34,241 nt of DNA, from contig REEA01000081.1 in assembly GCA_007695305.1 (NCBI GenBank), forward strand, positions 1-34,241. The letters run 5' to 3'. The notes beneath the pieces were generated by a model. The model worked only from the letters and a program-made list of their open reading frames with translations, made no database searches and was not told where the DNA came from. Shown here in pieces: positions 99 through 30,458 of this stretch (positions are counted from its first letter, which is position 1; the number at the start of each line of letters is the position of its first letter). Made by a program: the position numbers and the translations under genes. The DNA comes from Bacteroidia bacterium. GTDB lineage: Bacteria; Bacteroidota; Bacteroidia; Bacteroidales; UBA7960.

Positions 99-371
99 CC
101 AAATACATTAACACCGGTTGTATAACCCATTTCTCGATGAAGTGAGGAGCTGAAAGAACCAGGGGACAAGGCGAGGAGGAGATGTATGTATATGAATGCG
201 ATTTACCGGGTGACCGATTATTAATAAACAGGTATTTTGTATATTTGTATCTAAAAGGAATGATTTCTTTCACAGCTTTTGAAATAACTTTCGAGTATGT
301 TATTTGACACAGCCATCTTGCCGGAAAGATCCCATCCCTCCTGTCAATTCATTAAAACAACACCAACTAAC

Positions 372-3300
372 ATGATCAGATCAGCAGCTACAACCCGGTT
401 CATTTTTCTTATTTTTCTTTTATTTCCTCTGATGCTTCACGGGCAGAGCGACACTCCGGTGCAAAAAGCCATTGACGAAGCAGAGCAGGATGCATTGCAT
501 CGGCTTTGGGTAGAAACATCGGCCAGGTGGGAACTTAACAGGGAAAGGGTTTCCCTGTTTGAGGCTCGCCAGAGAGGGATGACCGAACTGCGTGACACCA
601 CCATGCTGGTCAAGTTGATGGGATTTAGTGACCGGGGAGAGCCCATTTACTATCAGACATTGAATTTATTTGCAGCCAAATCCCTCAACACCAATCGTTT
701 GTGGAGTGGTGGCAGTTCAGAGCTCAATTTGAATGGAGAAAATATTACGCTCAATATCTGGGATGGTGGCTCCATCAGGCATACCCACCAGGAGTTTGGT
801 GACCGTACGACCCAGATGGATGAAAATGCTGTGATGAACGGACATGCCACACATGTAGCCGGCACTATGGTGGCTGCAGGGATGGTTCCCACAGCAAAAG
901 GGATGGCACCTTCTGCTTTTCTGCATGCGTATGATTTCCAGGATGATGAGGTGGAGATGATCCAGGCTGCCGCCGATGGAGCCATTTTATCGAACCACTC
1001 TTACGGAAGGCCCACAGGCTGGCTTTTTCACATGAACCAATGGTGGTGGTATGGCGACACACGGGTAAGCAATGTGACCGACTACAAATTTGGCTTTTAC
1101 AGTGAAGAAACAAGGGTGCGTGATGAGATCACCTACCTGGCCCCTTTCTATCTGCAGGTGCACGCCGCCGGAAACGACCGCGGCACAGTAGGTCCTGATC
1201 CGGGCGAAGAGCACAATGTGTTTGATCATGATATCGGTCAATGGGTCAAGTCAACCGATTATCGCGAGCCTGACGGGGGTTACGAAGGTTATGACTGTAT
1301 TTCAACACTCGTGTTGGGAAAAAATGTGATCACCGTTGGATCTGTGCATGACGTGCCCGATTACACCGGACCGGAAAGTGTTGTGCTCAGTGACTTCAGC
1401 AATACAGGCCCCACCGATGACGGCCGCATCAAACCCGACGTGGTGGCCAACGGCCAAAGCCTGCTTTCTACATGGGTGGATACCAATACCAGTTACGTAA
1501 ACCTAACCGGCACCTCCATGGCTGCTCCCTCCATCACAGGATCATTGGGACTGATACAGCAGTTAAACAAACAGCTTTATGGCAGTTACCTGAGGGCGTC
1601 CACCCTGAAAGCGCTGATGATCCATACCACCAGAGAGGCAGGTGAACACCCCGGACCCGATTATCTGCACGGATGGGGACTGGCCGATATGGAGGCTGCC
1701 GCCAAAATTCTCCCCTACAAAGACAACACCACCATCATTCAGGAAAGAAACCTGGTTCAAACAGTGCTGCCAACCTATAGCAGAACTGTTTACGCACATG
1801 GTCAACAACCCCTGACAGCAACCCTGGCATGGACCGATGTACCCGGCACACCACCTGAACCTGCACTTAACGACCGCACACCTATGCTCGTTAATGACCT
1901 CGACTTAAGGATCATTCGCTTGTCAGACGATGAAGTGTTTTACCCCTGGAAACTCGACCCGGATAACCCATCGGCAGCGGCAACACAAGGAGATAATGTG
2001 GTTGACAATGTGGAAAAAATTGAGATCTTTTTCCCGGAACCGGGAGAATACCTGGTGCAGGTTTCCCACAAAGATTCCATTGTTGATCCCATTAACGCAA
2101 CAAACAAAAGACAGCCTTTCTCGCTGGTCATCTCCGGAATTGCCGAAAGAGCCATCGACCTTGCCATCGACAATGCATATATCCTGGATGCAGGTTGCAA
2201 CTTCTCTGAAGAAACACCGGCTCATATCGTTCTGGCAAACTTTGGACAGCAGGATGCAACAGACATTCCCGTGAGCTGGCAGGTAAAAAATGCTTCAGGA
2301 GAAGTGGTAGACAGCGACGAAATTGTGGTCGATGTCCTGGCTTCAGGAATTAATACGATACTGGAGGTTTTTCCCGACCTGACAGATGGCCTCCAGTTTG
2401 AATTCAAAGCCACAGTGACTTATCCGGGCGACCAACTGCCGGCCAACAACACATTTGTCAGAGATGTGGTATCTGTAAACTGGCCTGTAAGTGATGACGT
2501 ATTTCATACCGACTTTGATGAGATCCTGTATATTGAAGACCTTGGCTGGCATGTGGTTAACGCAAATGATAATGCATCCGGATGGATGCTGCGTATTGCC
2601 ACCGGGCCGAACCAGTTTGCCAGCAGCGGTTTTAATTCCATGCGTTATGGCAAACTTAACCCCGGCAATGATGGTGTGGAAACCATGGAAGATGCCGACG
2701 ACTGGCTGATCACTTCTTGTTTTTACTTGCTGGAAGGTGAAAACTACCGCCTGAGCTTTGATTATCGTGTGTGGAATGAAGACCACCCGGAGAGCATGCG
2801 CGTGTTGATCGGCACATCACCACATCATGAAGATTTCTCCATAGAACTCACCGACCTGGCCGATTTCGCCAACGAAGCGTTTGACAATGAACAGGTGCAA
2901 TTTACCGTGCCTGAAGAAGGGACCTATTACCTCGCATTCCATGTTTATAGTCCGGCCGACCACCGTTTTATTTACTTAGATAATATTTTTGTTGAACGTA
3001 TCCTGTTTGCCGATCTGTTACCCTCTGAAATTGTAGTGGATGCCCAGGGATGTGATTTCTCTGAAGAAACACCCGTAAACACCACTTTCCTGAACAACGG
3101 ACTGGACCCACAGCAGGATTTTGACGTGGAACTCATTGTAACCCACATTCCCACAGAAATGCAAAACAGTTATACTTACCATCATAACCAGGTGCTTGAA
3201 CCCGGTGCAACATACGATTATGAATTCCTTGCCGACCTGAGCCTGCATGGAACCTATTCCGTTATGCTGATAACCCATCTGACAGGTGACGAAAACCCGC

Positions 3301-6300
3301 ACAACGACAGTCTTGCGATCCATGTGAACAACAACAGCATCAACATGGCATACGAAAACTACTTCACCGATTTCAATAACGTGGGAAGTTTGCAGGAAAT
3401 GGGATGGGATGTGCATACCAACAGCGGGGGCAGCACAGGATGGCGGATGGGGCAACTTTCAGGGCATGCCCACAGCCCGCCGCAAAGCCTGAATATGTAC
3501 CGCTTTGAAGCCGACCCCGACGACTGGGCGTTTAGCAATTGTTTCGTGATGGAAGAAGGGGTGTACTATCGAATTCACTTCTATAAAGCCACCAAAGGAA
3601 CCAATACCCACGAAGAGTTTACGATCCATCTGATGGACGAACCAACACCGGAAGGATCCATCGCATTGTTGGATACGGTAATCGTCAATACCTTCGATTA
3701 TCTGCCCCACGAAATCGTGTTTCAGGTACCCTACAGCGGTGAATTCCATTTCGGTTTTTATACCGATTATACAGGGCCAAATACTTTTCAGATCTATGTG
3801 GATGACTTCGCTGTGGAATCGGTACTCAACCACGACGCAGCCGCGCTTGATATCATCCAGCAAACATGGGGTTGCAATGCCTTCACTGAACAAACATCCG
3901 TGCAGGTAGTCATCGAAAACAAAGGTGTGGAAGACCTGGCAAATGCACAGGTAGAACTCACCGTTAGCCATCCCGGTGCCGACACCCTTAGCTACACCCT
4001 CTTCTCTGACCAAACACTGCCACTCACCCAACGCGACACCCTGCAATTTTATGTGGACCTCAGTCAGCTCAATACCATCTTCGATTTACATGCAGAAGTG
4101 ATTTTAGCCGGTGATGAAAACCCTGATAACAATGTTTATCAAACCCAAATGCGCAATACAACCGTGGACCTTACCACAGGTGATGTTTATTTTAATGACT
4201 TTGAGATGGTACATGTTGATGGACACAGCGAATTGGTTGATCCCAAAACCGGATGGTGGTACGAAAACGCCAACGATGATTACAGCGACGACGGCACACC
4301 TATCACATGGTCGATGCGAAAACACGCCAATTTCGCCTTTAGCGGCGAAATATCCATGCGCAGTGGCCGAAGCATGGTCAACCCTGCCGACGACTGGCTG
4401 TTCTCCAACTGCCTGATCATGCAGGAAGGAGAAAACTACCTGCTGACCTTCTATTATACCGGTCGGACCACCAATGCTACTGAGAGAATGTCGGTTTACC
4501 TGGGTGATGATCAAAGCTCGGAGTCCATGGAGCAATTCCTGTGGCACGACACCTTCAGCACGGGCTTGAACTACCAGAAGGCGGTAGTGACTTTTGCTCC
4601 GCCTGCTGATGGCATATATTATATCGGTTTTCATGCCCATAGCGATGTCTATGAAGGATGGATATACATGGATGATTTCGAGATCAAAAGAAACCACGAC
4701 ATTGATGTGGCGCTGGACTTCATAGAGGTGATGGAAGATCCCTGCCATTTCTCTGACGAAACACCCGTGCATATCACATTCCGCAATTCCGGAAACCAGG
4801 CTCTTGATCACCCTGTAACCGTAGAATGGGAAGTGAGACAGCCCAACGGACAGATCAGCAGCTCGGGCCAGGAAACGGTGACGCAGTCAATGGCTGTTGG
4901 TCAAACAGCATATATTGAGATACCCGCCAACCTGCAGATGTACGGTAAGTATAAGATCAGCGCTTCCATCAGCCTCCCCCCTGAAGTAAACGAGCAGGAA
5001 ACAGGCAACAACCACGGTGAAATTGAATTCTTCGCCACACTAATGAATCCCGAGGCAGGCAATATTTATATCACGTTCGAGAAATACAGTGAGCTGGAGG
5101 AGACAGGCTGGACGGTAGTGGATGCCAACAACGATGGCTATACGTGGGATCTGGGTGTAAACTATACTGCCTTTTCCTACTCCGGGAACCGGATGATGTT
5201 TTATACCTTTAATCCGAATAGTGCAGCCGATGACTGGTTATTCTCCAGTTGTGCCTACCTTATGCCGGACACCGTGTATGTGGCCAGCTATTATTACCGT
5301 GTTTTCGACGGTGATTATGCCGAAAGCATGCGTTTTGGCATCGCTTCACAACCGCATCCCGATCACCTGGTGGAAGTGTTTGATGTGAAGGATGAGATAT
5401 ACAACTACCAATACCGGCGGGTGAGTTATGCTTTCACCGTGCCGGATGAGGGCTTGTATTACTTTGCTTTCCACGCCATCAGCGAACCCTATCGCAGGTA
5501 TATCTTCATGGACGACTTTGCACTGCGCAAGGCTCATGAAACTGACGGCTCGGTTTTTGCCATCCGCACCGATACAGATCCATGTCTCTTCAGCGAAGAA
5601 ACACCTGTCGTGGCCGTGATACAGAACCTCGGCAGCCAAACCCTCCCGGAATCCGTCCTGGAAATTGAAACAAGCGGTGTGGCTGAACCACAAAACATCT
5701 CCATCAACGTGCCTGAATTACCGGTGCTTGGAGAGGCAGAACTGACATTTAACCTTGACCTCACCACTTATGGACGTCATGTTTTGGATTATGCGCTGAT
5801 GGTGGATGGCGATGGAGACCTTTCCAACAACCAGGGTGTCCAACGGCTGTATGCCATTCGAATAGAACTGCCCGGCCCCGGTTTCTATTTTAATCAGGAT
5901 TTTGAAAACATATTCGCGTTGCGTGAAGCAGGGTGGACCAGCCACAATCTGAATAACGATAATCGCTACTGGGGTTTGCGTGTGAATGACCCCGGCTTGG
6001 CACACAGCGGTGGCAACTACGTGGTATACTTTACCGGAAATATGACGCAGGCCGCTAATGACTGGGTGATCAGCGGATGCTACACACTGGACCCAGGCAG
6101 GGAATACAAGGTTGCATTCTACAACCGGCTTGGATCAGGGTGGCATAACTTGCGGCTGGCAGCAGGGACCGCTCCATTTCCTTCGGAAATGAATCATGTT
6201 GTTTGGGAAGAAACAAGTATGACACAATCAGAATATGAGGGATACAATGCATTTGGCGGCATATTTGAAGCTGAAGATGCTGATTATCATTATTTTGGAA

Positions 6301-6866
6301 TACATCAGTTTAGCCCCCCCGGTCAGGGATCGTCTATTGCTGACGACCTTGTGGTTATTGCGCGACCAGATATTTTGCCCCTGGAAGACATTGAATGGGC
6401 CGTGGGTATGGAAGTCACCATCGAAGCCCTGGGAAGCGACTCTTTGCAATGGTTTGCAGATGCGGAACTCACCCAACTGCTGGGCTCCGGAAACATACTA
6501 AACTACGTGATCGAAGAAGAAGGCAGTATCAACATTTACGTAGCCGAAAACGTTTACGGCATCATGGGACCTGCCGATGTGGTGACCCTCGATGTTGCCG
6601 TCGGCATCCGGGAAGCAGCCGGACAATCAGCATTGACATTGTATCCAAACCCCGCACGGGACAAAATCTTTGTCACACTGACAGACCCATCCAAAGGAAA
6701 GCTGAGCATCCATGTGCTGAATATCATGGGCGAACCTGTAATACAAACCAGTCACTTGCATACAAATGCTTTTGAGCTGGATATTTCCGGCTTGCCAAAG
6801 GGAACCTACTTCCTGGTGATTCAGGACCGGGTGCAGCAATGGATAGCCAGGTTTGTCAGGATGTAG
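372..6866 (+). CDS. Secreted S8 (subtilisin-family) serine protease with T9SS sorting domain
   Basis: A 2164-residue extracellular protease. I chose the ATG at 372 because it opens directly on a signal peptide (MIRSAATTRFIFLIFLL...), while the ATG at 297 would put 25 unrelated residues before it. The S8 triad is visible: Asp131 in NIWDGG, His158 in GHATHVAG and Ser382 in GTSMAAPS; the oxyanion Asn is in HAAGND. A beta-sandwich follows the catalytic domain. Then come five ~280-residue modules, each opening with a C-x-F-S/T-E-E/Q-T-like motif (Cys609, 894, 1168, 1458, 1738) and containing a jelly-roll segment with DDWLFSNC-like motifs. Residues 2088-2164 (LTLYPNP start, GLPKGTYFLVI, end FVRM) form a type A T9SS C-terminal domain. 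Inferred: it is exported by Sec, moved across the outer membrane by T9SS and held at the surface or released. The modules probably bind substrate or act as a stalk; substrate unknown. Confidence 0.95.
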   Translation: MIRSAATTRFIFLIFLLFPLMLHGQSDTPVQKAIDEAEQDALHRLWVETSARWELNRERVSLFEARQRGMTELRDTTMLVKLMGFSDRGEPIYYQTLNLFAAKSLNTNRLWSGGSSELNLNGENITLNIWDGGSIRHTHQEFGDRTTQMDENAVMNGHATHVAGTMVAAGMVPTAKGMAPSAFLHAYDFQDDEVEMIQAAADGAILSNHSYGRPTGWLFHMNQWWWYGDTRVSNVTDYKFGFYSEETRVRDEITYLAPFYLQVHAAGNDRGTVGPDPGEEHNVFDHDIGQWVKSTDYREPDGGYEGYDCISTLVLGKNVITVGSVHDVPDYTGPESVVLSDFSNTGPTDDGRIKPDVVANGQSLLSTWVDTNTSYVNLTGTSMAAPSITGSLGLIQQLNKQLYGSYLRASTLKALMIHTTREAGEHPGPDYLHGWGLADMEAAAKILPYKDNTTIIQERNLVQTVLPTYSRTVYAHGQQPLTATLAWTDVPGTPPEPALNDRTPMLVNDLDLRIIRLSDDEVFYPWKLDPDNPSAAATQGDNVVDNVEKIEIFFPEPGEYLVQVSHKDSIVDPINATNKRQPFSLVISGIAERAIDLAIDNAYILDAGCNFSEETPAHIVLANFGQQDATDIPVSWQVKNASGEVVDSDEIVVDVLASGINTILEVFPDLTDGLQFEFKATVTYPGDQLPANNTFVRDVVSVNWPVSDDVFHTDFDEILYIEDLGWHVVNANDNASGWMLRIATGPNQFASSGFNSMRYGKLNPGNDGVETMEDADDWLITSCFYLLEGENYRLSFDYRVWNEDHPESMRVLIGTSPHHEDFSIELTDLADFANEAFDNEQVQFTVPEEGTYYLAFHVYSPADHRFIYLDNIFVERILFADLLPSEIVVDAQGCDFSEETPVNTTFLNNGLDPQQDFDVELIVTHIPTEMQNSYTYHHNQVLEPGATYDYEFLADLSLHGTYSVMLITHLTGDENPHNDSLAIHVNNNSINMAYENYFTDFNNVGSLQEMGWDVHTNSGGSTGWRMGQLSGHAHSPPQSLNMYRFEADPDDWAFSNCFVMEEGVYYRIHFYKATKGTNTHEEFTIHLMDEPTPEGSIALLDTVIVNTFDYLPHEIVFQVPYSGEFHFGFYTDYTGPNTFQIYVDDFAVESVLNHDAAALDIIQQTWGCNAFTEQTSVQVVIENKGVEDLANAQVELTVSHPGADTLSYTLFSDQTLPLTQRDTLQFYVDLSQLNTIFDLHAEVILAGDENPDNNVYQTQMRNTTVDLTTGDVYFNDFEMVHVDGHSELVDPKTGWWYENANDDYSDDGTPITWSMRKHANFAFSGEISMRSGRSMVNPADDWLFSNCLIMQEGENYLLTFYYTGRTTNATERMSVYLGDDQSSESMEQFLWHDTFSTGLNYQKAVVTFAPPADGIYYIGFHAHSDVYEGWIYMDDFEIKRNHDIDVALDFIEVMEDPCHFSDETPVHITFRNSGNQALDHPVTVEWEVRQPNGQISSSGQETVTQSMAVGQTAYIEIPANLQMYGKYKISASISLPPEVNEQETGNNHGEIEFFATLMNPEAGNIYITFEKYSELEETGWTVVDANNDGYTWDLGVNYTAFSYSGNRMMFYTFNPNSAADDWLFSSCAYLMPDTVYVASYYYRVFDGDYAESMRFGIASQPHPDHLVEVFDVKDEIYNYQYRRVSYAFTVPDEGLYYFAFHAISEPYRRYIFMDDFALRKAHETDGSVFAIRTDTDPCLFSEETPVVAVIQNLGSQTLPESVLEIETSGVAEPQNISINVPELPVLGEAELTFNLDLTTYGRHVLDYALMVDGDGDLSNNQGVQRLYAIRIELPGPGFYFNQDFENIFALREAGWTSHNLNNDNRYWGLRVNDPGLAHSGGNYVVYFTGNMTQAANDWVISGCYTLDPGREYKVAFYNRLGSGWHNLRLAAGTAPFPSEMNHVVWEETSMTQSEYEGYNAFGGIFEAEDADYHYFGIHQFSPPGQGSSIADDLVVIARPDILPLEDIEWAVGMEVTIEALGSDSLQWFADAELTQLLGSGNILNYVIEEEGSINIYVAENVYGIMGPADVVTLDVAVGIREAAGQSALTLYPNPARDKIFVTLTDPSKGKLSIHVLNIMGEPVIQTSHLHTNAFELDISGLPKGTYFLVIQDRVQQWIARFVRM

Positions 6867-9573: not shown

Positions 9574-9604
9574 TTTGCCGTTTTTGTGATATTTTATACC
9601 TTTG
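9574..9604 (+). promoter_or_regulatory. Bacteroidota-type promoter for the M49-like lipoprotein gene
   Basis: TTTG (-33 element) at 9574-9577 and TACCTTTG (-7 element, TAnnTTTG) at 9597-9604 are separated by 19 bp, an exact match to the known Bacteroidota sigma-ABfr consensus spacing. Transcription would begin a few bases downstream, giving a leader of about 65 nt. Confidence 0.7.
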
Positions 9605-9673: not shown

Positions 9674-11311
9674 ATGTACCGATTCAGATCGCTGATTACA
9701 GGCTTTATTTTCTTTACAATTATTTTAGTGGGATGTCAGCCGACAGACCGCGAATACCAGGAGCAGCTGCGTGAACGCATTGCACAGTATGAGGAAGTGG
9801 TTCTCACCACCGATTTGTCACACCTGACGGAACAGGAAAGAGATATGATTTCCTTTTTCATTTCGGCTGCTGACATTGTGGACAATATCTTCTGGATGCA
9901 GTCTTACGGCTCAAAGGAGCAGTTGATGGATTATATGACAGATCGATATGCGCGTGCTTATGCAAGGATTAATTATGGGCCCTGGGGACGTTTGGAAGGG
10001 CATACACCCTTTTACCCCGGATTTGAGGATAAGCCCCTGGGAGCAAACTTTTACCCGCCGGATATGGACAGGGAAGAATTCAACAACTGGGATCATCCTG
10101 ACAAGCGCAGCCCATATACCATGATCCGTCGTGCTACAGATGGTTCACTGGTGGCCATACCCTACGCTACTGCTTTTGCCGACTGGAATGAGGAAATTGC
10201 GGTGCATCTGAGATCGGCGGCAATTATTTCTGAATATAAGCCTTTCGCAAACTACCTGGATCAACTGGCTGACGCCTTACTAACGGACGATTACCGTGAG
10301 AGTGACATGGCATGGATGCAGATGCGCGACAACAATATCGACCTGGTATTGCGGCCACTGGACACGGGTGAAGACAGGAAGTTTGGTCATAAAGCGGCCC
10401 ATAGCGCATACATTGTAGTGAAGGATCATGAGCGCAGCGGTGACCTGAAGCGTTTTATCGGGATGGTGCCTGAGCTGCAAGCCCGCTTGCCGGTACCTGA
10501 CAGATATAAGCAGGAAGTTCCCGGAGATGACTCCGACATTGGGGTGTACGATGCCATTTATTATGCCGGTCATTGCAACGCAGGCCCCAAAATCATCGCG
10601 CTGCACCTGCCCCACAACCCGGAAGTCCAGCAAAAAATGGGCACACGCAGTATGCAGTTGAGCAACGTGATGGAGGCAAAATTTGATGGTATTCTGAAGC
10701 CCATCGGCAACATGATGATTCATGAAGACCAACGCGATTACGTGAGCTTTGATGCGTTTTTTCACCTCACGGCATTTCATGAGATCGCCGGTGGTTTAGG
10801 TATTTCCAATACCGTTACCGGTGAGGGAAGTGTGCGCGACGCCCTTCGGGAATATCATGGCGTCATTGATGCAACGGTATCAGATCTGATGGCTCTTTAT
10901 CTGATCACGCAATTGCAGGAAATGGGAGAACTGACGGAAGAAGAGTTGAAGCAGGCATATGTGACAGCCTTTGCCAGCGTGATGCGATCCAGTCGCTTTG
11001 GCACAGCCGGGGCACATGGTACGGCGGGCATGATCCGTTTCAACTTTTTTGCACGGGAGGAAGCATTCGCGCGTTGTCAGGATACCGACACCTATCTTGT
11101 AGATTTTGACAACATGCGTGCCGCTGTTGAAAAAGCCGTGGAAAAGCTCCTGATCATCCAGGGCGACGGCGACTACAATGCAGCACAGGAATTGATCACC
11201 AGCGATGGAGCCATGTCAGAGACCCTGCAGGGCGATATCGACCGCATCAACAATGAGAACATACCGGTGGATGTGGTATTTCTGCAGGGCTTACAACACC
11301 TGGATCTGTAA
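9674..11311 (+). CDS. M49 (dipeptidyl-peptidase III)-like lipoprotein with degenerate zinc site
   Basis: 545 residues. The signal peptide ends in a clear lipobox, LVGC (Cys21), so it is membrane-anchored. The C-terminal half matches the layout of peptidase family M49: a FHEIAGGLG stretch where the family has HExxH or HExxGH, then GSVRDALRE and, about 28 residues on, VIDATVSDLMALYLI where the family has EExxAD/E. Here the first His and Glu (His369, Glu370) remain, but the second zinc His is Gly (373 or 374) and the zinc-binding Glu of EExxAD is Ala400 (Asp399-Ala400). The reading frame is intact, so this is not an obvious pseudogene. I infer a catalytically dead or altered homologue, perhaps peptide-binding. 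It has its own promoter and is convergent with an M20 peptidase gene. Confidence 0.8.
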   Translation: MYRFRSLITGFIFFTIILVGCQPTDREYQEQLRERIAQYEEVVLTTDLSHLTEQERDMISFFISAADIVDNIFWMQSYGSKEQLMDYMTDRYARAYARINYGPWGRLEGHTPFYPGFEDKPLGANFYPPDMDREEFNNWDHPDKRSPYTMIRRATDGSLVAIPYATAFADWNEEIAVHLRSAAIISEYKPFANYLDQLADALLTDDYRESDMAWMQMRDNNIDLVLRPLDTGEDRKFGHKAAHSAYIVVKDHERSGDLKRFIGMVPELQARLPVPDRYKQEVPGDDSDIGVYDAIYYAGHCNAGPKIIALHLPHNPEVQQKMGTRSMQLSNVMEAKFDGILKPIGNMMIHEDQRDYVSFDAFFHLTAFHEIAGGLGISNTVTGEGSVRDALREYHGVIDATVSDLMALYLITQLQEMGELTEEELKQAYVTAFASVMRSSRFGTAGAHGTAGMIRFNFFAREEAFARCQDTDTYLVDFDNMRAAVEKAVEKLLIIQGDGDYNAAQELITSDGAMSETLQGDIDRINNENIPVDVVFLQGLQHLDL

Positions 11312-21432: not shown

Positions 21433-24348
21433 ATGTACTCGTTGGTAAAAAATTCCGTCCTGATTCTTTTTATTTCGCTCATCTTTTCCCATTCTCACAG
21501 TCAGATTAAAGATGTGGGAAGTCCGATTATTGTCAATCACCCACGTTATAGCTACGCTGCAAGCTCACAGAACTGGTCAATTACACAAAGTGCCAGGGGG
21601 TTCATTTATTTTGCCAACAATGACGGAATCCTGGAATATGATGGCTCAAGCTGGACAACCTATCAGGTGCCCAATACCTCGGTGGTTCGATCTGTTCTGG
21701 CCGCAGGTGATACAATCTACGCTGGGGCTTTTGAGGAAATTGGGTTTCTGGCACCGGGTGACAAAGGCCGGCTGGTATGGCACTCCCTGAATCACCTGGT
21801 GCCTCCGGAGTTTACCCAATTTGATGAAATATGGAATATTTTCCAGCATGATGGAAGAATCATTTTTCAGTCATTTTATGTTTTGTTAATTCTTGAAAAC
21901 AATGCCATCAGTGTTATAGAACCTGTCGATAATTTTGGTTTTATGTTTAACCCTGATAATGATTTTTTTATTGTGGACAGGGCACACGGGCTTATGTCGC
22001 TGCAGGGAAACAATCTCACCCTGGTCTCCGGCGATCCGCTGTTTCTGACCAGTGAAATAAACACTATTTTGCCCCACAAGCGGGGGGAGTTGCTGATTGG
22101 TACATCCAATAAAGGTCTGTATTTGTGGAATGGACAAAACGTGTATCCCTGGGAAACCCCGATCAGTGAAAAAATGCGAAAATATGATCTGTTTTGCGGT
22201 ATAAAACTCTCTGACGGTAATATCGCCTTTGGCAGCATAAGCAACGGAGTGTATATCAGTGACCCGGAGGGAAATATTCTGCAGCATATGAACAGGTTAA
22301 AGGGTCTGCAGAATAATACTGTGCTGGCTTTGCTTGAGGATAACCGCGGTAATTTATGGACTGGACTTGACAACGGAATTGATTTTATTGAGATCCGGTC
22401 GCCACTGACATTGTTTGATTACAACTACAATATCGAAAGTACCTATGCAACGGTGGTGCATAATGAAATCCTTTATGTGGGTACGAACCAGGGGCTTTTC
22501 GCTAAACATACCGACAGCATTGGCAGCAGAAAACATAATCAGCAAGATTTTCAGCTGGTGGAAGGTACTGAAGGACAAGTATGGAGCCTGCAGGTTATTG
22601 ACAATACACTGCTTTGTGGCCACAACTTTGGCTGTTTCCAGGTGGATGGATTCAACGCGAGAAAAATTTCTGATATCCGCGGGTTTTGGTCATTCCTGTC
22701 GCCACCCGATAAAGAAAACCTCATAATTGCCGGAACATATACCGGACTTGTAAGGCTTGAAAAAAGAGGAAGTGATTGGCATTTCCTTGATGAAGTTAAA
22801 GGATTCAGGGAGTCAAGCAGGCATCTGTTTCTTGACAACAGAAATGATTTATGGATCTCCCACGGTTACCGGGGTCTTTTCAGGCTTTCTTTAACAGATG
22901 ACTATTCGCAGGTGGAAAATGTTCTATTGTATTTTGGTGATGCAGGTTTACCCCTGGACCTTCCTTATAACATTCATCACATTAATGATCGCATGATCAT
23001 TACCACCCATGATGGGATAAAATATTTTGACTACGACCAGAGCATCTTCCTGTCTGATCCACTATTTGAAAGCTTATTTGAAGGGAAAAACTTTATCAGT
23101 ATCATCCACCAGGATGCAAGAGGGAATCTGTGGTATTTCAAAGATGACCTGATGGGGGTTATGCGCAAACTGGAAGACGGATCGTATCGCGATATAACAT
23201 CCCCGTTTTCAAGGATCAACGATATGATGATCCACGCTTTCCAAACTATATTTGTTGATTTGCCGCATCATGTTTTTATCGGAACCCAAATGGGACTTAT
23301 CCATTATGATCCTAATATTGCTTATGATTATCATGGTGTTGAAGAGGTTTTTTTTACTGAAATATCCTTTTACGGAAAGTCGCAACCTGTCACTTATCAC
23401 GCATTCAGTGCAGAAATATCAGAAAACGTGCAACATATTCCCAAGCTTCCCCATGCGCTGAACTCCGTAATATTTCGATTTACCTCCCCCATGTTTGAGA
23501 ACCCGATGGCCATAAGATATTCTTATATCCTCGAGGGTTTTGATCTTACCTGGTCTGAATGGAGTGAATTAAACTTTAAAGAATATACAAACCTTCGGGA
23601 AGGTGAATATACCTTTAAAGTCAAAGCGCGAAATCCCTTTGGAATAGAAACGCCTGTCAGTTCATTTCAATTCCGGGTTGATCCACCCTTTCTGAGATCA
23701 GGAATAGCCTACGTATTATATGCCGTTATCGTGTTATTCATCATCTTGGGAAATGTTTACATGTTCAGGAGAAGAATGCTGAAAATCCGCCTCAGGGAAA
23801 AAATCAGGCATGAAAAAAAACTGGCACGTCGTGAACAGATATTCAGGGAACAAACCGCTCTAAGCGAAAAAGAGATCGTGCACTTGCGAAACGAGAGTCT
23901 GGCCAGTGAAATGCAGCACAAGAATAAGGAGTTGGCAAATGCCACCATGCACCTTATTCAAAAAAACAGGACGCTCACAGCACTAAAAAATGACCTGGGA
24001 AAAATGCTAAAAAACATCCCGGATGATAATCCGGAAAAACACAATATCTTTGGCCTGTTGAAAAAAATTCACAAAGAGCTGCGCAACGAAAAGCACTGGG
24101 AATTATTTGACAACTATTTCGATGAAGTTCACCAGGACTTTATCACCCGCTTAAAGTCGGCTTATGGGGACTTATCCCCGAAGGAGCTGCGCTTGTGCGC
24201 CTATCTCCGGATGAATCTTTCCACAAAGGAAATTGCACCGCTTATGAATATCTCCGTGCGGGGTGTGGAAATCAGTCGGTACAGACTTAGAAAAAAGTTA
24301 AAACTCGAACCCCATGAAAACCTGACAGACTATCTCATCTCCTTTTGA
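21433..24348 (+). CDS. Membrane-spanning propeller/Y_Y_Y sensor with LuxR-type HTH, likely regulator of the glucan locus
   Basis: 971 residues. Order of parts: signal peptide (about 1-24); a long periplasmic beta-propeller of two-component-regulator type (about 30-680, with repeats such as LLEDNRGNLWTGLDNGI); a triple-tyrosine (Y_Y_Y) domain (about 690-755, FDLTWSEWSELNFKEYTNL); one TM helix (757-779); a charged coiled coil (about 785-885); and a C-terminal HTH (about 905-971) with LSPKELRLCAYLRMNLSTKEIAPLM. No histidine kinase, ATPase or receiver domain is present, so unlike hybrid two-component systems it would signal straight from periplasm to DNA. It sits 267 bp upstream of the PKD lipoprotein gene with the locus promoter between them, so control of the glucan genes is a strong inference. 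Confidence 0.88.
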   Translation: MYSLVKNSVLILFISLIFSHSHSQIKDVGSPIIVNHPRYSYAASSQNWSITQSARGFIYFANNDGILEYDGSSWTTYQVPNTSVVRSVLAAGDTIYAGAFEEIGFLAPGDKGRLVWHSLNHLVPPEFTQFDEIWNIFQHDGRIIFQSFYVLLILENNAISVIEPVDNFGFMFNPDNDFFIVDRAHGLMSLQGNNLTLVSGDPLFLTSEINTILPHKRGELLIGTSNKGLYLWNGQNVYPWETPISEKMRKYDLFCGIKLSDGNIAFGSISNGVYISDPEGNILQHMNRLKGLQNNTVLALLEDNRGNLWTGLDNGIDFIEIRSPLTLFDYNYNIESTYATVVHNEILYVGTNQGLFAKHTDSIGSRKHNQQDFQLVEGTEGQVWSLQVIDNTLLCGHNFGCFQVDGFNARKISDIRGFWSFLSPPDKENLIIAGTYTGLVRLEKRGSDWHFLDEVKGFRESSRHLFLDNRNDLWISHGYRGLFRLSLTDDYSQVENVLLYFGDAGLPLDLPYNIHHINDRMIITTHDGIKYFDYDQSIFLSDPLFESLFEGKNFISIIHQDARGNLWYFKDDLMGVMRKLEDGSYRDITSPFSRINDMMIHAFQTIFVDLPHHVFIGTQMGLIHYDPNIAYDYHGVEEVFFTEISFYGKSQPVTYHAFSAEISENVQHIPKLPHALNSVIFRFTSPMFENPMAIRYSYILEGFDLTWSEWSELNFKEYTNLREGEYTFKVKARNPFGIETPVSSFQFRVDPPFLRSGIAYVLYAVIVLFIILGNVYMFRRRMLKIRLREKIRHEKKLARREQIFREQTALSEKEIVHLRNESLASEMQHKNKELANATMHLIQKNRTLTALKNDLGKMLKNIPDDNPEKHNIFGLLKKIHKELRNEKHWELFDNYFDEVHQDFITRLKSAYGDLSPKELRLCAYLRMNLSTKEIAPLMNISVRGVEISRYRLRKKLKLEPHENLTDYLISF

Positions 24349-24459
24349 CAAACACCACATCAAATAAAAAAGATTGTTTGTGATTATGTTGACAATTAGA
24401 AACCGATAATTAACTGGGGAAAAAACATATATACCTGAATATCAAATTAAAAAAAATCA

Positions 24460-24479
24460 CATGATGTATTCATGATGTA
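24460..24479 (+). promoter_or_regulatory. Direct repeat, candidate operator of the glucan locus
   Basis: CATGATGTA occurs at 24460-24468 and again at 24471-24479, an 11-bp period that puts both copies on the same face of the helix. The repeat ends 40 bp upstream of the -33 element at 24520. That is a usual activator position, and LuxR-type HTH proteins often bind as dimers to repeated sites. Binding by the adjacent regulator is inferred. Confidence 0.45.
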
Positions 24480-24519
24480 GTTAAAATGACCCCTGCTGTA
24501 ATATTGCTGTATTTGAATA

Positions 24520-24551
24520 TTTGTAATACGCGTGATTTGCAACTATGTTTG
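24520..24551 (+). promoter_or_regulatory. Bacteroidota-type promoter of the glucan utilisation operon
   Basis: TTTG at 24520-24523 and TATGTTTG (TAnnTTTG) at 24544-24551 with a 20-bp spacer match the Bacteroidota consensus. The predicted start of transcription near 24555 gives a leader of about 60 nt before the ATG at 24616. It also argues against the longer reading frame that begins at 24532. Confidence 0.7.
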
Positions 24552-24615
24552 CCCGATAATATGTTTTAAATCAACTATTCTCGTTTCAATGTTAACCAAC
24601 CAAAAAAACATCACT

Positions 24616-26103
24616 ATGAAAAAAAGCATCAAAAAAAAGCATTTCATTCAGGCATTTCTGCTTGTGGGCGTTTTTGCCTTCTTTGCCTTGGCATCCTGCA
24701 GCAAGGATGATGATCCGGCAGAAGACCCCATTGCAACTTTCCAGTATGAAATCAGTGAAGATAACTATCTGACAGTTATCTTCACAAACTTCTCCCAGAA
24801 TGCCGAAACCTACAATTGGGACTTCGGCGACGGAAATACCTCAACGGAGGAAAATCCCATCCACACTTATGATGGTCCCGACACGTATGAGGTTGTCCTT
24901 ACAGCTACCAATAAGGATGGCGTAAGCAGAAGCTTCTCCGAGATCATCGTGCTTGACGATCCGGATTATTTACTTTCCTTACTGGCCGGTGAAACTTCCA
25001 AAACATGGAAACTATACCGTATTGAAACCAGCATGGGTGTAGGTCCCAGCGTGGATAGTCCGAGAGATTGGTGGTTCCTGGAGAACGACGGCAGCAGGCC
25101 TTGTAAGTATTTCCATGAATTTACCTTCCACAGGAATGGTGATTATGTTTTTGACGACAAAGGTTATATGTGGGGTGAAGGCGGCGTGTTCCACGAAGAC
25201 TTCGTGGGCGAATGTATCGAAGCCATCCCTGCCAATATGGTAGGCCCGGATGGAGAGGATCTCAGTCCGTGGCTGGGAGGAACCCACGCTTTTGAGTTTA
25301 ACCCCAACACCATGCAAGTTACCTTGACAGGATTAGGTGCCTGGATTGGAGTCGTAAAGGTAGGCACCCCTGGCGAAGTAACCGTACCACAAAGCAGCGT
25401 ATCGTTCATCATCGATATCGAAGAACGCGATGGATATGATTATATGCACGTACTCTTTGTTTACGACTGGGGTGTATGGTCATTCTCCTACGCTCACTAC
25501 CATGATCCTGCACAAGAACCTGATGTGGTAGAAGAGGTAGATCCGATAGATCCACTGGATGAATTAACACCCACAGAAATGTTCAATACTTTTGCTTCAA
25601 CAAGTGATGAAGATGTTCAAATTCTGGTCCCAACAGAATCAACTGTCGAATTAACTGTTGGTGTGGATGATCCTGCTGATCCTGACGGAGTAAAGGTTGG
25701 GCAGTATCACAGGATTGCTACCGAATGGCAGGAACTTCAGTTTGCCACCGAGTACTATATCCAGTTTGATAACTTTACCACTGTTTCCCTTGATGTATAT
25801 ATTCCCAGTGATAATGATTTTTCAGGTGGCCTGACAAAAGACATTGCCATCGTTATTGCAAATTCGCATGATAACGCAGAATGGTGGAACCATCACCTGC
25901 AGTATGATGTAAATCCTGATGACGTTGTACTTGATGAGTGGCAAACCTGGACTTTCCAGTTAGGTGAGCCGACCAGTGGGCCCGGCATACCTGACGGTAC
26001 TCCGCTCGAGCGTGGCGATCTCAACTTCTTTGCCATCTCCATTGGTGGTGCCGGACACCCTGATCCAGGAACCTTCTATATCCGAAACTTTATTTTTGAA
26101 TAG
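24616..26103 (+). CDS. PKD and CBM-like surface glycan-binding lipoprotein
   Basis: 495 residues. The leader ends in LASC (Cys28) followed by SKDDD, a good surface-lipoprotein export signal in Bacteroidota. Residues about 40-115 are a PKD domain (WDFGDG at 68-73, NPIHTY). The middle part (about 120-310, TWKLYRIETS, W/Y-rich) is a beta-rich domain that I do not recognise with confidence. The C-terminal ~160 residues look like a jelly-roll carbohydrate-binding module (YYIQFDNFTTVSLDVYI ... GTFYIRNFIFE). No catalytic motif is seen. By position and make-up it should be the surface glycan-binding protein (SusE/F role) that feeds SusCD. The ATG at 24616 is chosen because it directly begins a Lys-rich signal peptide and lies after the promoter. 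Confidence 0.88.
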   Translation: MKKSIKKKHFIQAFLLVGVFAFFALASCSKDDDPAEDPIATFQYEISEDNYLTVIFTNFSQNAETYNWDFGDGNTSTEENPIHTYDGPDTYEVVLTATNKDGVSRSFSEIIVLDDPDYLLSLLAGETSKTWKLYRIETSMGVGPSVDSPRDWWFLENDGSRPCKYFHEFTFHRNGDYVFDDKGYMWGEGGVFHEDFVGECIEAIPANMVGPDGEDLSPWLGGTHAFEFNPNTMQVTLTGLGAWIGVVKVGTPGEVTVPQSSVSFIIDIEERDGYDYMHVLFVYDWGVWSFSYAHYHDPAQEPDVVEEVDPIDPLDELTPTEMFNTFASTSDEDVQILVPTESTVELTVGVDDPADPDGVKVGQYHRIATEWQELQFATEYYIQFDNFTTVSLDVYIPSDNDFSGGLTKDIAIVIANSHDNAEWWNHHLQYDVNPDDVVLDEWQTWTFQLGEPTSGPGIPDGTPLERGDLNFFAISIGGAGHPDPGTFYIRNFIFE

Positions 26104-26112
26104 TAATAACCC

Positions 26113-26148
26113 TTTGAAAATGGCCGGCAAAAGCCGGCCATTTTCAAA
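26113..26148 (+). other. Perfect 16-bp intergenic hairpin between PKD lipoprotein and GH16 genes
   Basis: TTTGAAAATGGCCGGC (26113-26128), loop AAAA, then the exact complement GCCGGCCATTTTCAAA (26133-26148). It starts 10 bp after the stop of the lipoprotein gene and ends 15 bp before the GH16 start. The GC-rich top and lack of a following T-run argue for an mRNA-stabilising or partial-termination element inside the operon rather than a full terminator. Confidence 0.75.
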
Positions 26149-26163
26149 CTGTATCATACAACC

Positions 26164-27285
26164 ATGACTGTATTTCGACTCATGGGATATTTATTCTTGC
26201 CGGTGATGGCGATACTTATGATTTCCGCTTGTGAGAGTGACGACCTCATCAATACGGGAGATCCTGCGAATCTGGTAGTGGAAGTTGAAATCGCAGATGA
26301 TGGCAGCGGCTATGTCTTTATTCAGGCAACTGCCGATTATGCCGTTGAATATCAATTGCGGGTTGGCACGGTTGATGAACCCGTTGAAACCAATATCACC
26401 GGAACATTTACATACCAGTTTGTTCAGCCAGGCACCTATGAGCTGGACGTAAGGGCATATGGGTCCTCCGGCAGATACCTGCGCAGGGTCATACCTGTTA
26501 CCATTGTGATAGGAGGTCAGGACGTATCTCCTGATCAGGGTTATACCACTCCCTTGCATTATGACGGATGGGAGCTTGTCTGGCACGATGAATTTGAGGG
26601 CAATACCATCAATCCTCAAAACTGGGTTTTTGAAATTGGTGACGGGTGTCCACATCTATGTGGATGGGGTAACAATGAGCTCCAATACTACCGTGAGCAA
26701 AATGCTTGGGTCGAAGATGGTATACTAACCATCGAAGCCCGGAACGAAAACTTTGGCAACCGGCAATACACCTCCACCAGGATGAAAACACAGGGCAAAC
26801 AATCATTCCAATACGGACGCATTGATATCAGGGCCTTGCTTCCCGCCGGTCAGGGTTTATGGCCGGCACTGTGGATGCTGGGTAATGATATCACATCCGT
26901 GGGATGGCCCAAATGCGGTGAAATTGATATTATGGAAATGATTGGAGGAAGTGGAAGGGAAAATACCGTGCATGGCACAGTACATTGGGATCTGGGCGGG
27001 CACGTGCAGGCAGGTGGCAGCTACACCTTGCCGGCAGGTACTTTCGGCGACGAATACCATGTATTTAGCATTATATGGAACGAGAATACAATCACATGGT
27101 TTGTCAATGACATCCAGTACTATTCCATTGATATTACACCCGGCCACATGACAGAGTTTCATCAGGAGTTTTTTTTCATTTTCAATGTTGCTGTAGGTGG
27201 TAACTGGCCTGGCAGCCCAAATGAAACCACTGTCTTTCCCCAGCAAATGCGCGTAGACTATGTGCGCGTTTTTCAGCTCATTTAA
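26164..27285 (+). CDS. GH16 family endo-beta-1,3-glucanase (laminarinase-type) lipoprotein
   Basis: 373 residues. Lipobox ISAC (Cys23) followed by ESDD indicates a surface lipoprotein. Residues about 30-125 form a small PKD-like beta-sandwich. The GH16 beta-jelly-roll covers about 135-373, with the catalytic motif GEIDIMEMIG: nucleophile Glu253, Asp255 and acid/base Glu258. The extra Met between Asp-Ile and Glu is the form seen in laminarinases and other beta-1,3-glucanases, and distinguishes them from lichenases. Also WPALWMLG, ITWFVNDIQYYS and FFFIFNVAVGGNWPG, which bind beta-1,3-glucan in characterised relatives. It would cut laminarin or mixed-linkage beta-glucan at the cell surface. Co-transcribed with the gene before and with SusC (55 bp later). 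Confidence 0.93.
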   Translation: MTVFRLMGYLFLPVMAILMISACESDDLINTGDPANLVVEVEIADDGSGYVFIQATADYAVEYQLRVGTVDEPVETNITGTFTYQFVQPGTYELDVRAYGSSGRYLRRVIPVTIVIGGQDVSPDQGYTTPLHYDGWELVWHDEFEGNTINPQNWVFEIGDGCPHLCGWGNNELQYYREQNAWVEDGILTIEARNENFGNRQYTSTRMKTQGKQSFQYGRIDIRALLPAGQGLWPALWMLGNDITSVGWPKCGEIDIMEMIGGSGRENTVHGTVHWDLGGHVQAGGSYTLPAGTFGDEYHVFSIIWNENTITWFVNDIQYYSIDITPGHMTEFHQEFFFIFNVAVGGNWPGSPNETTVFPQQMRVDYVRVFQLI

Positions 27286-27340
27286 ACAGCTAATCGTACA
27301 ATTATTCTTCAAAAAAAAACCATACCAAAAACAAACAAAG

Positions 27341-30300
27341 ATGAAGAACACTTTACTTTTTCTACTGTTGATGATCCCCGGATTCATCAATGGTGGTCTG
27401 CTGCATGCCCAAACCCTTGAGGGCATTGTGACCGACCGGGTTTCCGGCGAATCGCTGCCGGGAGCCACAATCATGGTAAAAGGAACTACCCAGGGTACGG
27501 TAACGGGCATTGACGGCGATTATCGCCTTAGCCTGCAAGCCGGATCACATGTTATTACATTTAGTTATGTGGGTTACATGCCATTTGAAATTGATATCAG
27601 CATTGAATCCGGCGAAACGATTGTCCGCAATGTTCAATTGCAACCTGATATTACCACCTTTGAGGAGTTCGTGGTGGTGGGTTATGGTACACAACAGAAA
27701 AAAGTTGTTACCGGAGCCATTGCCAGTGTAGATGCCGAAGCAATTACTTCAACACCGGTACTTCGGGTTGAACAAGCCATGCAGGGCAGGGCTGCCGGTG
27801 TGCTGGTAACCAACCTTTCGGGGCAGCCCGGTGAAGCACCCACGGTCCGTATCCGGGGCGCGGGAACCACCGGTAACGCAGAACCACTATACGTGGTGGA
27901 TGGAATGGTCGTAGGTGGAATCGATTTTCTGAACCCCGGCGACATTGAATCCATTGATGTGCTTAAAGATGCGGCCTCTGCGGCCATATATGGTGCACGA
28001 GCGGCCAATGGCGTTGTGCTTATTACAACAAAAAGTGGCGTAAAAGGAGATTTAAGCTTAAATTATTCCTATTATCAAGGTGTTCAAAACGTTGCCAGGT
28101 ATGTTGATGTGCTCGATGCTGAGCAATACATGATGATGATGAATGAGGGTGCAAGAAATGCCGGACAACCGGAACCTTTTGACCCAAATGAAATACCACT
28201 GCACAATACCAACTGGCAAAAAGAACTGTTTGAGAGCAATGCACCCATCGCAAACCATGAACTGTCGGTTAGCGGGGGCTCTGAGCGATCAACCTATGCT
28301 TCCTCTCTTTCCTATTTCACACAACAGGGAATCATCGGGGGAGACCGGTCGCAATTTGACCGTCTCACTGCGCGACTAAATACCCGTCATCAGGTCAATG
28401 ACTTCATCCACTTCGGAAATAACCTGGCCTATTCACATATAATCAGAAGAGGGATTGCCAGTAATGCTTCATTTAACGCAGCCTACAGCAGCGCTCTCAA
28501 CATTGACCCCCTGACACCCGTCTTTCAAGATGACGAAGCCATACTTTCACAACCCCCCTATTCCAATCAACCTGTCGTAACCAACGGTAACGGAAAAATA
28601 TATGGCATTTCTGAACACATAGGTGCTGAAATTGTAAATCCACTGGCATTATTGGAAATTCAGACGGGTGAAACACGGGTGGACAAGATCGTGGGAAATG
28701 TTTTCGGAGAAATTGAACCACTGGAAGATCTGAAATTCAGGACAACTTTGGGTATTGATTTAGCCTATGTTCTGGGTGACTCTTATCAACCATTGTATTA
28801 TCTTAATGGGGCCCAGTATAATTTGAACAAAACCTCCGTCCAGAAAAATATTGACAGGTATTACACCTGGCAATTCGAGAATACACTCACCTATTCAAAA
28901 CAAATTGACGACCATAACTTTTCGGCGCTTTTGGGTACCACTGCCAGCAAAACCAATTTTGAGAATCTTTATGGTTTTAATGCCGACGTGGATGTGAGCA
29001 ACCCTGACCATGTTTACCTCAATATGGCAACAGATACGGTTTGGCAGGCTTTTGGAGGAGCATATCATGAAGCCCTTTTGTCAGTGTTCGGACGTGTATC
29101 ATACAACTACCTGGCCAGATACGCTTTTGACGCCACTGTTCGGAGAGATGGCTCATCAAAGTTTGGTCCCAATAATCGCTTTGGTACCTTCCCTTCCTTT
29201 GGCGTCACCTGGATGATCAGCGAAGAAAATTTCTTCCCATCATTAGGCCCGCTGGAAGTGGTTAAATTAAGGGCTTCCTGGGGGATTAACGGTAACCAGG
29301 AAATTGGCAACTATCAGTTTATCTCCACCATCGACAGGAGCAGAGGATACATTTTTGGCGGCGGAAGGGCATTCGGTGCCTCACCGTCATTCATTGCCAA
29401 CCGGGATATCCGGTGGGAGGAATCGGAGCAGATCGACATTGCCATTGACTTTGGGGCTTATGACAACCGGCTCACCGGTACTGTTGACTATTACGTCAAA
29501 ACAACCAAAGGATTGCTTGAAGTGATACCCATCCCCGGTCATGTGGGCAACGACCCGCCGGTGGCCAATGTTGGAAGTGTAGAAAACAGAGGTGTGGAGA
29601 TGTCACTTAACTGGCGTAACTACCAACCGGACTTCCGCTATTCCCTTGGTGTAAACGCAGCTTACAACAAAAACGAGATGACTAAAATCGGGAATGCAGA
29701 AGGTATTCTTCCCGGTGCAAACTGGGCAGTGGCGGGTATGGTAACACGCACTGAACTGGGGTTGCCAATTGCCTATTTTTATGGTTATGTTACCGATGGC
29801 ATATTCCAAAACTGGGCTGATGTCTACCAGCATGTTAATAAGAATGGTCAAATGCTTCAACCCAACGCCCAGCCGGGTGATGTCCGTTTTGTGGATGTAA
29901 ATGGTGACGGTGTAATTAATTCAGATGACCGCACGATGATCGGCAAACCTACACCAGATTGGACTTTTGGTATGAACGGAAATTTTGAGTACAAGCAATT
30001 TGATTTAGGCTTTCTCATCATTGGAACCTACGGAAATGATGTTTTCAATGGTATCAGGAGACGCGACCTGAACAACACCAACCTTTCAACGGATATGTTA
30101 GATCGCTGGACAGGCGAAGGAACATCCAACACCATACCACGTTTCACCTTTAGCGACACCAACCAGAACAACAGGATATCTGACCTGTACATTGAAGATG
30201 CATCATTCCTTCGACTGAAAAACATCCAGATTGGATACACCATTCCTGCAAGCGTACTGAACAGAATCAATGCCAGAAGCTGGCGGGTTTATATTTCAGC

Positions 30301-30439
30301 AGAAAACCTGATCACACTCACCAGATATACTGGAGCTGACCCGGAAATTGGAGCACTTAGTTCATTCGACATTGGAATAGACAGGGGTATATATCCTCAG
30401 GCAAGAACGTTCCGCCTGGGTACAAGCATTTCATTCTAA
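27341..30439 (+). CDS. SusC/RagA-family TonB-dependent outer-membrane transporter
   Basis: 1032 residues. The start at 27341 opens on a signal peptide (MKNTLLFLLLMIPG...); the reading frame is open back to 27260 but that part lies inside the GH16 gene. A CarboxypepD_reg-like domain (about 25-100, LEGIVTDRVSGESLPGATI) is followed by a TonB-box-like FEEFVVVGYGT (107-117), the plug (about 120-235, VRIRGAGTT, SAAIYGARAANGV) and a beta-barrel ending in Phe (TFRLGTSISF). It imports beta-glucan oligosaccharides using TonB energy, with SusD as lid. It sits between GH16 and SusD in one operon. Confidence 0.96.
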   Translation: MKNTLLFLLLMIPGFINGGLLHAQTLEGIVTDRVSGESLPGATIMVKGTTQGTVTGIDGDYRLSLQAGSHVITFSYVGYMPFEIDISIESGETIVRNVQLQPDITTFEEFVVVGYGTQQKKVVTGAIASVDAEAITSTPVLRVEQAMQGRAAGVLVTNLSGQPGEAPTVRIRGAGTTGNAEPLYVVDGMVVGGIDFLNPGDIESIDVLKDAASAAIYGARAANGVVLITTKSGVKGDLSLNYSYYQGVQNVARYVDVLDAEQYMMMMNEGARNAGQPEPFDPNEIPLHNTNWQKELFESNAPIANHELSVSGGSERSTYASSLSYFTQQGIIGGDRSQFDRLTARLNTRHQVNDFIHFGNNLAYSHIIRRGIASNASFNAAYSSALNIDPLTPVFQDDEAILSQPPYSNQPVVTNGNGKIYGISEHIGAEIVNPLALLEIQTGETRVDKIVGNVFGEIEPLEDLKFRTTLGIDLAYVLGDSYQPLYYLNGAQYNLNKTSVQKNIDRYYTWQFENTLTYSKQIDDHNFSALLGTTASKTNFENLYGFNADVDVSNPDHVYLNMATDTVWQAFGGAYHEALLSVFGRVSYNYLARYAFDATVRRDGSSKFGPNNRFGTFPSFGVTWMISEENFFPSLGPLEVVKLRASWGINGNQEIGNYQFISTIDRSRGYIFGGGRAFGASPSFIANRDIRWEESEQIDIAIDFGAYDNRLTGTVDYYVKTTKGLLEVIPIPGHVGNDPPVANVGSVENRGVEMSLNWRNYQPDFRYSLGVNAAYNKNEMTKIGNAEGILPGANWAVAGMVTRTELGLPIAYFYGYVTDGIFQNWADVYQHVNKNGQMLQPNAQPGDVRFVDVNGDGVINSDDRTMIGKPTPDWTFGMNGNFEYKQFDLGFLIIGTYGNDVFNGIRRRDLNNTNLSTDMLDRWTGEGTSNTIPRFTFSDTNQNNRISDLYIEDASFLRLKNIQIGYTIPASVLNRINARSWRVYISAENLITLTRYTGADPEIGALSSFDIGIDRGIYPQARTFRLGTSISF

Positions 30440-30458
30440 CAAAAACAAGAAAATAGTC

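Follow-up and report, generated by a model that had tools for sequence, protein, structure and literature searches.

The window, a 34,241-bp stretch of a contig from a Bacteroidales genome, encodes a lipoprotein that descends from the M49 peptidases (dipeptidyl peptidase III, DPP III) and has lost two of the three zinc ligands of these enzymes. We favor, as the probable explanation, that it is a pseudopeptidase that is dead as a DPP III and has been retained as a ligand-binding protein of the cell envelope. Research on DPP III, in organisms ranging from bacteria to humans, has dealt with it as a zinc peptidase, and peptide binding is measured in the laboratory with inactive point mutants made for that purpose. 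A long-kept DPP III without these zinc ligands offers a clean natural test of the fold without catalysis, for which the closest canonical paralogues, encoded by the same genomes, serve as controls; it also warns that a protein called DPP III on the basis of homology is not necessarily a peptidase.

The coding sequence (positions 9674 to 11311, forward strand) was characterized using phmmer, AlphaFold, and Foldseek. The frame is open throughout and encodes 545 residues, which confirms the intact frame reported in an earlier reading of the DNA (the sequence-only reading). The M49 homology proposed there was likewise borne out by full-length phmmer matches to solved DPP IIIs: residues 12 to 534 aligned with the enzyme of Caldithrix abyssi (6eom; E value, 4.9e-94) and residues 32 to 534 with that of Corallococcus (5zum; E value, 4.9e-73). 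The protein is, by descent, an M49 (DPP III) homologue. The Pfam profile for M49, PF03571, did not match the window protein, while 28 of the 37 aligned relatives matched it at an E value of ≤1 (best, 7e-16); annotation based on PF03571 would therefore miss this protein. At the N-terminus (9674 to 9736, forward strand), a signal peptide ends in the lipobox LVG-C21, and its cysteine is present in 26 of 26 members of the clade described below. Judged from these features, the protein is a lipoprotein with an envelope anchor. Structure prediction, which the sequence-only reading had put forward as a check, gave an AlphaFold model with a mean pLDDT of 92.3 and a pTM of 0.89 (37 sequences), and the top Foldseek matches of the model were DPP IIIs (5zum, TM score of 0.89; 6eom, TM score of 0.82). 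Thus, the two-lobed DPP III fold is predicted to be kept.

In the structure of the Caldithrix DPP III, zinc is bound by both histidines of H379EISH and by the second glutamate of E411ECKAD (PMC5805324); residue numbers of this enzyme are marked Ca here. Based on alignment to the DPP IIIs with crystal structures, Gly373 of the window protein (codon GGT) takes the place of the second zinc histidine (Ca His383) and Ala400 (codon GCA) that of the zinc glutamate (Ca Glu412). The first zinc motif reads HEIAGG (residues 369 to 374; 10778 to 10795, forward strand) where the canonical motif is HEVAHG, so that the first histidine and the catalytic glutamate are kept and the second histidine is not; the second motif reads DATVSD (residues 399 to 404; 10868 to 10885, forward strand) where EEAKAD is canonical. 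The kept residues are His369, Glu370, and His448, the equivalents of Ca His379, Glu380, and His460. The window protein has neither of the motifs of an active DPP III (HExxGH or HExxH, and EExx[RK]A[DE] with the zinc glutamate), and a scan of the whole protein for HExxH, HExxxH, or EExx[AS][DE] elsewhere found none. The alignment therefore agrees with the sequence-only reading that two of three zinc ligands are lost while the first histidine and the glutamate remain, and the loss stands after the search for an intact HExxH/EExxAD pair elsewhere that this reading had suggested. Its description of the first motif as an altered HExxH/HExxGH needs one refinement: the motif is indeed altered, but the relevant relatives carry the pentapeptide HExxH, which makes residue 373 the ligand that was lost.

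To place these changes in the family, relatives were drawn from 59 genomes near the window genome, 47 genomes of the family, and the GTDB contig collection, and a tree was built from those sequences that were long enough, with the motif columns removed. In this tree, 26 sequences formed one clade with support of 100/100, and this clade lay inside a set of paralogues from the same Bacteroidales family that have the canonical HEVAHG/EEAKAD motifs. Histidine at 373 and glutamate at 400 were each found in 0 of 26 clade members and in 64 of 64 intact relatives, which were defined as intact by the presence of both zinc ligands. Clade members instead carry Gly, Ala, Glu, Ile, or Met at 373 and Ala or Val at 400; Glu373, a possible ligand, occurs in two members only, both of which lack His369. 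His369 is kept in 24 of 26 members and replaced by Tyr in L058 and L063, while Glu370 (26/26), Asp404 (26/26), and His448 (25/25) are conserved. The sequence-only reading had raised the question of whether a clade shares these changes; the loss of both ligands turned out to be common to the whole clade, with 400 being Ala or Val and 373 variable. A sequencing or assembly error was ruled out, as the same loss is present in 26 sequences from separate assemblies. On the deepest branch (L067 and L068), both ligands are already lost, while Glu230, Asn311, and Lys402 (the KAD of the EEAKAD-type motif) are still present; this supports that the zinc ligands were lost early and some other residues later. 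When 295 genomes of the class were surveyed, each of the 30 best matches was intact. We note that a histidine at position 350 (10721 to 10723) is present in most of the altered clade and in its nearest canonical paralogues (L032 and L033), in agreement with their sister placement in the tree.

Clade members are almost all metagenome-assembled Bacteroidales, and relatives carry CSSed-type sample codes, which we take to refer to Cock Soda Lake sediment. Among the 21 genomes of the window's genus, the altered copy is present in 16 and a canonical copy in 1 (G002), while the canonical copy is present in 22 or 23 of 26 genomes of the family's other genera; both copies occur together in 13 genomes of the family. 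Partial copies (e.g., in G016, G020, and G061) were assigned by identity, and incomplete assemblies blur single absences but not the overall copy pattern. Four of the 21 genomes of the genus had no match, and a further genome, G007, has a broken remnant of the altered gene bearing a stop codon as well as large deletions (contig C23 [L047], approximately 353 to 1189), indicating that the gene is dispensable. In the 94%-complete window genome, we found neither a second M49 match of the short-form type nor a long-form M49 (PF03571), and on this basis rejected the idea that another M49 protein of this genome supplies the enzyme. A search of viral contigs and plasmids identified no relative, and a mobile or viral origin was rejected on this basis.

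Simulations of the Caldithrix enzyme identified Glu240, Tyr242, Glu254, Asp310, Asn321, Asn324, and Glu326, among others, as substrate contacts (PMC5805324). In the window protein, residues 228 to 236 (PLDTGEDRK; 10355 to 10381, forward strand) correspond to the canonical P-I-E-N-Y-E-D, with Ca Glu240 replaced by Asp and Ca Tyr242 by Gly; residue 232 is Gly in 26 of 26 clade members and Tyr in 64 of 64 intact relatives. Residues 297 to 315 (YAGHCNAGPKIIALHLPHN; 10562 to 10618, forward strand) correspond to the canonical YAGDCNAG.KTIAxNLPND and carry His300, adjoining Cys301, for Ca Asp310, His311 for Ca Asn321, and His314 for Ca Asn324. Residues 438 to 449 (RSSRFGTAGAHG; 10985 to 11020, forward strand) retain His448 and have Gly446 in place of Ser. 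In addition, Ca Glu254 is Ser. Of the residues that hold substrate in active DPP IIIs, Glu240, Tyr242, Asn321, and Asn324 are therefore absent, with Asp, Gly, His, and His in their place; across the clade, His, Asn, or Tyr is found at Ca Asn321, and Ca Asn324 is variable. Among positions that are ≥92% conserved in the intact relatives, 11 of 15 active-site positions, as listed from one published structure, versus 20 of 141 others were changed in the clade (Fisher P = 3e-6, a value that is overstated and indicative only because 3 of the 15 sites are the clade-defining zinc-motif sites and the sequences are related). While positions 373, 314, and 402 drift, new residues have become fixed: Gly232 (26/26), His300 (25/26), Gly446 (25/25), and His110 (26/26). 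The fixation of several replacements points to a remodeled cleft, and this pattern of residues suits a new cleft function better than decay. The sequence-only reading had suggested retained peptide binding; that suggestion did not hold up in its DPP III form, since the contacts to the substrate N terminus and in S1/S2 are largely replaced. Binding of peptides in the manner of DPP III is disfavored given the loss of the known substrate-holding residues, and a peptide held as in the ancestral DPP III is an improbable candidate for the putative ligand.

The same reading had described the gene as retained rather than decaying, and the selection analysis bears this out. dN/dS was 0.04 to 0.11 across seven clade pairs, indicating strong purifying selection, versus 0.02 to 0.09 for the intact paralogues, with overlapping ranges; the seven pairs were those with measurable synonymous divergence, and because the nearest pairs of the window protein itself were saturated, other clade pairs were used. 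Frames are intact in nearly all clade members. Evolution in the clade has been approximately threefold faster than in the intact paralogues (1.20 versus 0.40 changes per site since the common node), and part of the change is thus relaxation. Two hallmarks of pseudoenzymes were found, i.e., loss of catalytic residues in a conserved clade and purifying selection after that loss.

Compared with the short-form DPP IIIs 6eom and 5zum, the window protein is alike in fold, first zinc histidine, catalytic glutamate, His448, and many structural residues, but the second zinc histidine, the zinc glutamate, and Ca Tyr242, Glu254, Asp310, Asn321, and Asn324 are replaced; unlike these two enzymes, it is a lipoprotein. 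The canonical lipoproteins of the family (e.g., L074, L076, and L032) are 48% to 54% identical to the altered protein and share its length and lipobox, but all 25 keep all three zinc ligands, and the substrate residues are present in all 25 or almost all of them. A weaker Foldseek match (TM score of approximately 0.4; 10% to 12% identity) was to PolE (DUF6421), an Fe/pterin oxidase (L-Ile desaturase) with a DPP III-like structure and an HE/DxxH...Glu metal triad (PMC12614342). In PolE, the DPP III-like fold has been put to another use with the metal triad kept, while the clade is without the second histidine and the glutamate.

A second group of intact M49-like frames without zinc ligands was found at L109 (8356 to 9978), L111 (5843 to 7516), L120 (8011 to 9645), and L121 (7492 to 9159), all on the forward strand, with YEIADAxV and INSLKAD-type motifs. 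Each is followed on its strand by an intact DPP III gene, approximately 10 nt away in L109 and L111 and approximately 300 nt away in L120 and L121, and dN/dS was approximately 0.02 to 0.06 in the one pair tested, consistent with purifying selection. These proteins differ from the window protein in their separate origin in the tree, in the tandem arrangement with an intact copy, and in having also lost the first histidine; they are 33% to 42% identical to it. Based on the sequences of both groups, M49 catalysis has probably been lost with retention of the gene at least twice in Bacteroidota. A limited search of the literature turned up no earlier description of an M49 clade without zinc ligands. 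Three further M49-like proteins with altered zinc motifs, L042 (HEMAVG/LNEVKAE), L045 (FEISEG), and L118 (YELVAA), are on long branches.

We propose that a DPP III gene was duplicated within this Bacteroidales family, as the tree suggests, with import of a copy as the alternative. One copy lost two zinc ligands on the single ancestral branch that the clade defines, while keeping the predicted two-lobed fold and the lipoprotein anchor seen in its sequence. The inter-lobe cleft was rebuilt, with Gly232, His300, and Gly446 becoming fixed and the old substrate contacts disappearing, and strong purifying selection has held the altered copy afterwards, as the dN/dS values indicate. We infer that catalytic zinc binding in the DPP III manner and dipeptide cleavage were lost and that the protein may now act as an envelope binding protein, its lobes closing on a ligand in the remodeled cleft. 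Still, Glu370, His448, and, in 24 of 26 members, His369 have been kept, although a pure binding protein would not need them. A tentative idea is that the DPP III fold has taken on another role in this clade, in which an envelope-anchored protein with a rebuilt cleft (His300-Cys301, Gly232, and Gly446 together with Glu370, Asp404, and His448) would bind or transform a nonpeptide ligand and would have replaced the ancestral peptidase in one genus. Less likely than the binding protein, in our estimation, is a neofunctionalized enzyme that performs a different reaction in the cleft, perhaps with another metal or none, through Glu370, His448, Asp404, and the new His300 next to Cys301. The invariance of Glu370 and Asp404 (26/26) and His448 (25/25), the replacement of Asp by His300 in 25 of 26 members, and the precedent of PolE (PMC12614342) speak for such an enzyme, but the PolE metal triad is not kept in the clade, and with Tyr for His369 in L058 and L063 and variation at His311, the alignment suggests no evident invariant three-residue metal site.

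Alternatively, the fold could have been kept so that the protein can pair with another peptidase, such as an active DPP III, or titrate it. The 13 family genomes with both copies and the second group, in which the pseudo copy lies upstream of the intact copy in tandem, would fit such a regulator, but we consider it improbable: of the 21 genomes of the window's genus, 16 have the altered copy and only 1 has an intact copy, a long-form M49 is missing from the window genome, and M20 and S8 peptidases are not conserved neighbors. That an inactivated duplicate is being lost under relaxed selection is disfavored and very unlikely; the faster evolution, the remnant in G007, and the absence from four genomes of the genus are as expected for decay, but the dN/dS values of the seven pairs, the near-universal intact frames, the fixed new residues, and a ligand loss that predates the divergence of several genera are not. 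We give the least weight of all to a persisting zinc dipeptidyl peptidase in which His369 and substitute ligands hold the metal. Most members do have the first histidine and the catalytic glutamate, but 373 and 400 are mostly nonligand residues, the two members with Glu373 lack His369, the substrate contacts are gone, and the protein has no alternative HExxH.

The sequence-only reading had also given the gene its own consensus promoter and placed it among peptidases (S8 and M20). A Bacteroidota-type promoter is present in the window (9574 to 9604, forward strand), with TTTG at 9574 to 9577, a 19-nt spacer, and TACCTTTG at 9597 to 9604; its position 70 to 100 bases upstream of the start supports separate transcription of the gene. 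When the 250 nt were shuffled by mononucleotide, 0.25% of the shuffled sequences had a full match by chance; a scan for the sigma-70 consensus was uninformative. The promoter is not general in the clade, with a full match in just 1 of the 25 other members (L048). The S8 and M20 genes do lie in the window, but among the orthologous loci, many of which are on short contigs, we found no M20 gene, and an S8 gene in two loci only. Within the genus, the loci lie near the same genes (a 2-hydroxyacid dehydrogenase, a DHDPS family protein, a NUDIX protein, an MnmC2-like protein, a MenA-like UbiA protein, and QueA), while loci from outside the genus have other flanking genes, frequently on the opposite strand; no conserved operon partner hinting at the ligand was found among these loci. 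A role in an operon or peptidase cluster was rejected because of the absent M20, the two S8 loci, and the often opposite strands of the flanks outside the genus. The S8 gene of the window (297 to 6866, forward strand) encodes a subtilase of 2,189 residues that carries a C-terminal sorting domain for type IX secretion. Farther downstream, on the forward strand, the window has a Y_Y_Y/LuxR-type regulator (21433 to 24348), a PKD protein, a GH16 gene (26164 to 27285), and a TonB-dependent receptor and SusD pair (27260 to 32015); the group from 21433 to 32015 is likely a polysaccharide utilization locus.
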